Assembly (NCBI RefSeq): GCF_007004665.1
Contig: NZ_ML660054.1
Coordinates: forward strand, 558,001 to 622,000
DNA from: Denitrobaculum tricleocarpae
Lineage (GTDB): Bacteria > Pseudomonadota > Alphaproteobacteria > Kiloniellales > Kiloniellaceae
Direction of reading: 5' to 3'
Length of the DNA stretch: 64,000 nucleotides
Program-made: the position numbers and the translations under genes
Notes under the pieces: generated by a model
The model's database searches: none
Told to the model about the DNA's origin: nothing
What the model saw: only the letters and a program-made list of their open reading frames with translations
Shown here: piece after piece, positions 25,068 to 27,398 of the stretch
How the letters are laid out: every line of letters begins with the position of its first letter
Position numbering within the stretch: position 1 is the first letter of the stretch

Positions 25068-25435
25068 CTGTTCCTCTCATCAGTTCCTGACCGCATGAAA
25101 ACCCGACCGGCCATGTCACAAGAATGACAGACGAGCGTTAAGACTTTCTAAAATCCATGGTTAACAAGGCGTTAAAGGCCGGTTTACGAGGCGATTTCCT
25201 TCCAGTTCTTCGCATTCCAGGCCAAAATTGAGCTTGAAAAACAAAGGCCAAGGCACACCCTCCCGCCCCCCCTACAAAAAAATCTTTCAATTACGAACCC
25301 ACGAATTTTCCCTGGAAGTTACACGTCCCTGTGGTGGCAATCCCCATCAACGAAACGCCTCCCCACTCAATCAAATTCTTGCCTTGAACAAGCTAAATTA
25401 AATCACTAATTGCAAGTAACAATCATTTCGGCAGT

Positions 25436-25467
25436 CGCAATTTGCAAATTGCGTTGCATTTTGCAAC
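25436..25467. promoter_or_regulatory. TTGCAA-type palindromes, possible activator site
   Basis: CGCAATTTGCAAATTGCG (25436-25453) is a perfect palindrome, followed directly by GTTGC-ATTTT-GCAAC (25453-25467). They lie about 170-185 bp upstream of the sigma-54 promoter at 25622, within the normal range for enhancer-binding-protein sites. They also resemble TTTGCAAA operators of short-chain acyl-CoA regulators, so the assignment is open. Confidence 0.4.
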
Positions 25468-25621
25468 AAAAACCTGCGAATGCGAACTTACTGATCTTCG
25501 ATAGCCTTCAGTAAGATAGCGAAATTCTCATCAGCATGACGTTCGCAGAACCACCCAATTCTGCCTGTTTTTTGTTGGATTCAGTACAAAAATATCCGGC
25601 AGAAGTTCCTTACCCCTAAAA

Positions 25622-25638
25622 CTGGCACGGCCCTTGCT
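25622..25638 (+). promoter_or_regulatory. Sigma-54 (RpoN) consensus promoter
   Basis: CTGGCACGGCCCTTGCT fits the -24/-12 consensus YTGGCACG-N4-TTGCW at every position, with exactly 10 bases between the GG (25624-25625) and the GC (25636-25637). Expected start of transcription is about 25648-25650 on the plus strand. There is no plausible protein gene immediately downstream. Confidence 0.6.
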
Positions 25639-25648
25639 ACCAAACGAT

Positions 25649-25777
25649 GTGGCACTAGCCCTTAGAAGCATGTTTATTTGTGTTTCTAAGTCTATGGAAG
25701 TTACAGGGAAAACCAACTCAGCCGACAAATGTAGTGACGGCGAAGTGGCCCGGGCATGTCCTGGGCCACTATTTTAT
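25649..25777 (+). ncRNA. Candidate sigma-54-dependent small RNA
   Basis: Predicted transcript of about 129 nt from the sigma-54 promoter. It begins with a 10 bp hairpin (CTTAGAAGCA, 25661-25670, pairs with TGTTTCTAAG, 25681-25690, one G-U), continues with a 50 nt A-rich, largely unpaired stretch, and ends in a long GC hairpin (AGTGGCCCGGG...CCTGGGCCACT, 25744-25770) followed by ATTTTAT. The T run is short, so termination may be partial. A 53-codon frame from ATG 25670 crosses the hairpin but has no ribosome site or protein pattern. No known RNA family recognised. Confidence 0.45.
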
Positions 25778-26184
25778 CGAAAGAGTGTTCACCTCGGCAG
25801 CATCTTTTCGCAGGTTGTGAACCACAGGTAGTGACAACAACGGGATTGAGCAGGCGATTGTTTGAGGATCGCAAGACTTTCCCACGCTGAAAGGAATGGC
25901 ATTTGTTCAATCGCCCCGCATCTATCGATGACTGTCGAAACTGTAAACGCCATCCCAGCATTTGCACCTGTTATCCACTCTTGGCACACGCCAAAACCTA
26001 CGCACGCCGGAAACCGGCAAGCAAAAGGCCTTCCCGCCCGCGCGATCGCACCGTTAGCCAGCAGCCTGCACAGGTATTGCCGGCCCTTCCCAAGGGCCGC
26101 TGACTTCAGGCCTCCTGTTCAGGGGAGAGGAAGAGCGGCAGTTCGCGGCCACAGCAGGCTCCCCCAAAGCGTTCTTTACCCATC

Positions 26185-26378: not shown

Positions 26379-27398
26379 TTGATCAAGCCCCCAAGCGTTA
26401 TTCTCTACGGCCGGAAGGCTGTCGGTAAAATCACTCAATTACGGGAGTTCCTGACCACGGACTGGGACGTTATTGGTTGCGTCCCTGAGGAAACACCCGA
26501 GGCGCAACTTCGCGAGTGGGCTCTTGAAGCACGGGCTATGGTCAGCGGGCGGCCGGACAGTACCCTGCCCCAACTTCCCAAGCTCGAAGTCTTTCAGATT
26601 CCCTTTGCCGGCTACGATTGGATAACGCCCGACGAGTTGCCGGCAGGCTGCACCTTCTGCAACGCCTATGAGCATGAACCGGCGATCGCCGAATACATTC
26701 TGCTTGCCATGCTGGAGTGGGAAATCGGGCTCTGCAAAGTGTCCAGTAAGTTTCGGCAGGAAAGCTGGCAGGGCCGAACGGCAGGCGCAGGCCCAACTCA
26801 TGGCGAACTCAAAGGCAAAACCGTCGGCATCCTGGGATATGGTCACATCGGCCGTGAGGTTGCGCGCCGCGCGTCAGCCTTCGGCATGCGTATTGTGGCG
26901 ATTGCCAATTCATCCAAGCCTGCCCAGGACGGTATTGACTGGCTGGGCACCCATAAGGACTTGGAGCGCCTGCTCAGCGAGAGCGATTATCTTGCGATTT
27001 GCTGCCCCTTGAACGAACAAACCCGCGATCTCATCAATTCCGACGCTTTTGCGGCCATGAAATCCAACGCCGTGATCCTGAATGTCGCCCGCGGACCGAT
27101 CGTAAACGAAGAGGCCTTGTTCAACAGTCTGAAAAGCGGATCTATCCGGGGCGCCGTCATCGACGTCTGGTATCAATATCCGACGCCCGACGATCCGTCG
27201 GTCCGGCCCTCGGCCTTTCCTTTCCACGAGCTCGACAATGTCATCATGACGCCCCATAACTCCGGCTGGACCGAAGAGACGATTGAGCGCCGCTGGCGTT
27301 TCGTTGCCGCCAACCTGGACCGGCTCGCACGAGGCGAACCGCTTCAAAATGCTGTCTTTACAGGTACGGGCCGCTGTGCGGCATCACAGAAAACCTGA
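26379..27398 (+). CDS. D-isomer 2-hydroxyacid dehydrogenase family protein, formate-dehydrogenase-like active site
   Basis: A 339-residue protein starting at TTG 26379 behind AGGAAGG. Rossmann motif GYGHIGREVARRA (about 156-168), catalytic Arg in NVARGPIVNEEAL and catalytic His in MTPHNSGW. The usual catalytic Glu of the family (DVFxxEP) is missing: the site reads DVWYQYPTP, closest in form to formate dehydrogenase (DVWxxQP) and its PHxSG. Residues 1-120 form the substrate-binding lobe. Family enzymes reduce 2-keto acids or oxidise formate with NAD(P). Substrate unknown. A terminator and palindrome precede it; no co-transcribed gene follows. Confidence 0.75.
   Translation: MIKPPSVILYGRKAVGKITQLREFLTTDWDVIGCVPEETPEAQLREWALEARAMVSGRPDSTLPQLPKLEVFQIPFAGYDWITPDELPAGCTFCNAYEHEPAIAEYILLAMLEWEIGLCKVSSKFRQESWQGRTAGAGPTHGELKGKTVGILGYGHIGREVARRASAFGMRIVAIANSSKPAQDGIDWLGTHKDLERLLSESDYLAICCPLNEQTRDLINSDAFAAMKSNAVILNVARGPIVNEEALFNSLKSGSIRGAVIDVWYQYPTPDDPSVRPSAFPFHELDNVIMTPHNSGWTEETIERRWRFVAANLDRLARGEPLQNAVFTGTGRCAASQKT

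Follow-up and report, generated by a model that had tools for sequence, protein, structure and literature searches.

The switch from LuxO to the Qrr small RNAs, known from the Vibrionaceae, is a textbook example of a quorum-sensing circuit, and in V. fischeri the LuxO paralogue SypG reads the same sites. Another terminated RNA that depends on sigma-54, in this case together with NtrC, is NrsZ of Pseudomonas. The published Vibrionaceae LuxO enhancer site is TTGCAWWWTGCAA (PMC10162802, citing Lenz 2004 and Svenningsen 2008), and an alanine scan of the HTH of V. cholerae LuxO identified eleven residues that are needed (PMC11407668). The literature searched, which did not cover subscription papers and preprints, contained no account of an RNA driven by LuxO in any other family.

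Here, we describe a locus at positions 25435-25777 of the window (the whole stretch of 64,000 nucleotides that was analysed, G000:C3:558001-622000, from a draft genome of 6.4 Mb), where a first-pass annotation had proposed a sigma-54-dependent small RNA with palindromes upstream. Such an RNA, with an upstream enhancer, remains the best reading and has passed a conservation test; its expression and its transcript ends are unproven. We consider it probable, without being certain, that the locus is a regulatory RNA gene turned on by a LuxO-type response regulator through sigma-54.

Layout and conservation of the locus

The first-pass annotation had reported a perfect -24/-12 promoter with no protein gene 3' of it, and both statements held: TGGCACGGCCCTTGC at 25623-25637 is the sole TGGCACN5TTGC within the window (0.19 expected by chance), it is conserved in four species, and the sequence after it contains no ORF with a credible ribosome site. 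With the +1 predicted at ~25649, the features of the locus are as follows.

25435..25447, no strand assigned: LuxO-type enhancer site 1, TCGCAATTTGCAA, predicted with one mismatch; exact TTGCANNNTGCAA in two sister species
25454..25466, no strand assigned: LuxO-type enhancer site 2, TTGCATTTTGCAA, a predicted site with an exact match, invariant in four species and 19 bp from site 1
25568..25594, no strand assigned: conserved dyad TTTTTTGT-N10-ACAAAAATA, present in each of the four species in the spacer from enhancer to promoter
25622..25638, + strand: sigma-54 -24/-12 promoter CTGGCACGGCCCTTGCT, kept in four of four species (TGGCAT in G001)
25649..25777, + strand: predicted small RNA of ~129 nt, its ends inferred from promoter and terminator
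25661..25690, + strand: 5' stem-loop of 12 predicted pairs, from the predicted fold
25691..25721, + strand: linker, identical in four species and partly predicted unpaired
25744..25777, + strand: intrinsic terminator with an 11-bp GC-rich stem (hairpin 25744-25770) and an ATTTTATC tail

The two palindromes upstream of the promoter are indeed present, and only their distance had been given slightly wrongly: it had been put at 170-185 bp, whereas the site centres lie ~208 and 189 bp upstream of the predicted start, with 156 bp between the end of the nearer site and the -24 element. The point that had been missed is that these palindromes are putative LuxO-type enhancer sites. Site 2 fits the LuxO consensus TTGCAWWWTGCAA exactly, with binding inferred from sequence only. 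The pattern TTGCANNNTGCAA occurs without mismatch at two places in the 6.4-Mb genome, one of them site 2, and its reversed control pattern occurs at none; the other place (C3:367585) has a CTC core, lacks the AT core, and lies in a short gap ahead of a gene. Among the sister species, G002 has its only TTGCANNNTGCAA-type site of the whole genome at this locus, G001 carries two perfect tandem copies of TTGCATTTTGCAA there, and in G003 both locus sites are exact TTGCANNNTGCAA.

The comparison set consisted of the four sequenced species of the genus (G000-G003), whose sequences are close. All four genomes have the locus with the gene order kept, and identity to the other three species was 94-100% in the enhancer pair, 50-81% in the spacer to the promoter, and 94-98% in the RNA. 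Conservation that is so sharply limited to enhancers, promoter, and RNA, together with synteny in all four genomes, counts in favor of a regulatory RNA. Loss of the promoter and hairpins in relatives had been named at the outset as what would refute the proposal; the comparison instead found them conserved well beyond chance across the four species.

Beyond the locus, an unannotated small Cys-rich ORF lies at 25903-26103 of the window on the + strand (IDDCxxCxRHPSICTCYPLL...), with a TTG start behind an AAGGA-like site. It is conserved at the protein level in the four species, with changes mostly at third positions, and has no Pfam match.

A LuxO-type activator encoded in the same genome

Eight sigma-54 activators score well in this genome and three more score weakly. 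Seven of the eight are NtrC, NtrX, FlbD, a PrsR-type protein, a PspF-type protein, and two other regulators, with FlbD and NtrX exceeding their curated cut-offs. The remaining one is encoded elsewhere in the genome (G000:C5:74826-76220) and scores 617 bits (616.8) against the NCBIfam LuxO model versus 399 for the next family; because this is under the equivalog cut-off of 800 bits of that Vibrio-specific model, we treat the protein as a LuxO-type homologue and not as a certified equivalog. Its top PDB match is Photobacterium angustum LuxO (5ep0, 54.7% identity), and a tree groups it with LuxO and LuxO-like proteins, apart from NtrC, NtrX, FlbD, and PrsR, with a support of 1.0. At the eleven HTH residues needed in V. 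cholerae LuxO it is identical in nine, with I in place of V and R in place of L at the remaining two, and the other seven activators are identical at only 3-7 of the eleven. Given these matched residues and the LuxO-like grouping, the protein expected at TTGCA sites is encoded.

As in LuxO/SypG-type proteins generally, the receiver domain with its Asp, the AAA+ domain, and the Fis-type HTH all align, and the recognition helix is shared (SPSTIYRK in the LuxO-like protein). The Asp-bearing receiver domain fits control by phosphorylation, and because SypG reads the same sites, “LuxO” here may mean a LuxO/SypG-type protein. The genomic setting is different in that the gene stands alone, with a peptide transporter on one side and an acyl-CoA ligase gene on the other. 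Since no LuxU-like lone HPt was found in the G000 genome, quorum sensing is a possibility and not a result.

A genome with eight well-scoring activators could also drive a real sigma-54 small RNA through NtrC, or through whatever reads the TGT-N10-ACA core of the dyad (25573-25588), rather than through the LuxO-type protein. The dyad is kept in all four species, its core has no other copy in the window, and it is possibly the site of a second regulator, which is unidentified. The spacing of TGT-N10-ACA is that of NifA sites, but a family profile search placed no NifA above its cut-off in the G000 genome. Of the blocks upstream of the promoter, the LuxO-type pair of sites is conserved best, and only the LuxO-like protein carries a LuxO-matching recognition helix, leaving another activator an unlikely answer, if one that cannot be ignored.

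The predicted RNA

A stretch of 132 nt has a predicted folding energy of -47.3 kcal/mol and beats 200 of 200 shuffles (z = -3.7). Its 5' hairpin, anticipated by the first-pass annotation as 10 bp long, is predicted at 25661-25690 with 12 pairs instead, and the long GC hairpin expected ~129 nt on corresponds to the terminator hairpin at 25744-25770, followed by ATTTTATC; the U-tail is short. The 5' stem holds most of the sequence variation of the RNA, and most substitutions there preserve the pairs (A-U to G-U, G-U to G-C, and G-U to A-U), with one pair lost through a gap in G003. Among only four close sequences, no pair has changed on both sides, which is why covariation supports the stem only weakly.

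The same transcript might be read as a small mRNA for a 45-aa ORF (MEVTGKTNSADK...) with its ATG in the linker and its frame running through the hairpin. This ORF is open in three of the four species, and in relatives LuxO-type sites often precede genes for ~70-aa proteins. However, a 1-nt insertion in G003 cuts it to 13 codons, it has no Shine-Dalgarno (the bases before the ATG form the 5' hairpin stem), translation would have to be served by a message that crosses a strong terminator, and conservation over the ORF spans all codon positions. On account of the frameshift, the missing ribosome site, and the crossed terminator, we rejected the small-protein reading, to which we attach very little credence. 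Least credible is that the segment is a conserved untranslated leader or regulatory region of what follows, either the Cys-rich ORF at 25903 or a dehydrogenase gene at 26379, and not an independent RNA, given that, for all the partial conservation of downstream sequence and the kept gene order, a strong terminator stands between the RNA and those genes and invariant columns in G003 and G001 fall just past it (56% versus 90% in the RNA).

An independent small RNA, as preferred here, is confined to the genus as far as our searches reach. With blastn, none of 56 further genomes of the order matched the RNA, a covariance search within the family gave no credible match outside the genus, and a search of 384 further genomes of the class did not find it. 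Weak covariance matches within the family (E 0.001-10) were set aside, as neither a LuxO site nor a sigma-54 promoter lay near them. Rfam, searched at the gathering threshold and at E<=10, gave no relevant match.

Comparison with Qrr and NrsZ

The locus shares with Qrr (RF00378) a sigma-54 promoter preceded by two LuxO-type TTGCA-N3-TGCAA sites, an RNA of similar size (~110-130 nt) with a 5' stem-loop, a conserved and partly unpaired linker, and a terminal hairpin, as well as a LuxO-type activator in the same genome. It differs in not lying beside luxO and in the class of its genome, inferred to be Alphaproteobacteria because FlbD and NtrX exceed their cut-offs, and the enhancers of V. fischeri are closer to the promoter than those at the G000 locus. 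The RF00378 covariance model found nothing in the RNA at E<=10, while as a positive control the qrr of Vibrio bivalvicida (L033) scored 107.8 bits, and local similarity between the RNA and Qrr was not above that of shuffles. Membership in the Qrr family was rejected for want of any covariance or sequence match. The predicted RNA is wired like Vibrio Qrr, yet it is a different RNA.

NrsZ, with which the locus had been compared at first pass, is likewise a sigma-54-dependent terminated RNA. The locus differs from it: the enhancers are LuxO-type and not NtrC-type (by visual comparison with the NtrC consensus), no Rfam match was found, and the enhancer sites and the encoded activator indicate wiring of the LuxO/Qrr type.

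Proposed mechanism

In line with established sigma-54 biology, we propose that the phosphorylated LuxO-like protein would bind the two TTGCA-N3-TGCAA sites ~190-210 bp upstream and reach sigma-54 polymerase at the -24/-12 promoter through a DNA loop, and that transcription would yield an RNA of ~129 nt ending at the GC-rich hairpin. This RNA, with its 5' hairpin and invariant linker, may in turn base-pair in trans with mRNAs, presumably making contact through the linker at 25691-25721. What the DNA itself offers for this scheme, as annotated here, is the promoter, the sites, the terminator, their conservation, and a LuxO with a matching recognition helix. Binding of LuxO at this locus, an RNA with these ends, and base-pairing are all inferred. 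The case is weakest in having no expression data and few related sequences, and in that a second regulator may act through the dyad at 25568-25594. The occurrence of the same TTGCA sites before sigma-54-like promoters in LuxO-bearing relatives counts in favor of LuxO as the activator.

When one 20-nt portion of the linker was reverse-complemented and used to search for targets, no site near a start codon was shared by the same gene across species, and predicted pairing with the mRNAs of luxO and of neighbouring genes was no better than with shuffles.

If confirmed, the locus would extend the same activator-plus-RNA wiring to a further class, where the RNA is unrelated. It could then be tested whether selection preserves the wiring, as a fast, dose-graded way for a phosphorelay to act post-transcriptionally, and not the RNA. 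The locus also offers a tangible starting point for learning what LuxO-type proteins control outside Vibrio. Of 63 genomes of the order, 25 encode such proteins, and they also occur on Azospirillum and Rhodobacterales plasmids. When GTDB genomes were scanned for a TTGCA-N3-TGCAA site upstream of a sigma-54 promoter, the matches listed, some of which are expected by chance, included several recurrent arrangements besides Vibrio. LuxO-type control reaches beyond Vibrio, and an RNA as its output is less common. We are evenly divided on the broader idea that wiring a LuxO-type protein and sigma-54 to a small RNA is a general bacterial device, for which several lineages (the genus studied here, Succinivibrionaceae, and single alpha- and deltaproteobacterial MAGs) have recruited unrelated RNAs, and not a one-family invention of the Vibrionaceae.

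LuxO-type sites in other lineages

Among the matches listed, five loci in Succinivibrionaceae (L051, L123, L076, L101, and L070) have paired LuxO-type sites, a sigma-54 promoter, and a short RNA with the conserved start ATCAGTTWATCCCGTGT, terminated wherever the contig reaches far enough. It had no Rfam match in L051, L101, L123, and L076 and looks like another Qrr-like RNA family. A LuxO-type site, a sigma-54 promoter, and a short RNA with a strong hairpin and T-run also occur in a deltaproteobacterial MAG (L034) and an alphaproteobacterial MAG (L056). The RNAs of Succinivibrionaceae, L034, and L056 are unrelated in sequence to the RNA of the window.

Protein genes follow such sites elsewhere. 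In Rhodobacteraceae and related alphaproteobacterial MAGs, again among the matches listed, a site and a sigma-54 promoter 138-166 bp apart, a spacing almost as at the G000 locus, stand before the gene of an HTH regulator (MKHPVDVHVGKRIRHRRWMVGMTQQQL...) that belongs to Pfam HTH_3 and, as we presume, resembles PraR (L025, L030, L050, L059, L068, L071, L074, L086, L088, L095, L116, L118, L120, L121, L124, L125, and L137). In Azospirillum, also among the matches listed, the site and promoter precede the gene of a 72-aa protein, and ~70-aa proteins behind LuxO-type sites were seen in Azospirillum, in the sister genus g4, and in G003 (L063, L065, L111, L117, and L127; L211, L212, L214, L220, L222, L224, and L228). 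Two of these proteins were tested and had no Pfam match.

G001 belongs to the LuxO-bearing relatives from the same family, and its LuxO-type sites also stand before a gene that lies near a luxO paralogue and polysaccharide genes. In G001, a second luxO-like gene lies beside a hybrid kinase gene and a polysaccharide-type dehydrogenase gene (L213, G001:C1:470001-486000), with a LuxO-type site and sigma-54 promoter ~5 kb off, an arrangement reminiscent of V. fischeri SypG. In the sister genus g4 (L169-L176), luxO adjoins a lone HPt gene resembling LuxU, an apparent LuxU-LuxO pair in an organism inferred to be alphaproteobacterial; Vibrio LuxU (1y6d, E 1e-5) and a histidine kinase tied as the best PDB matches of this HPt.
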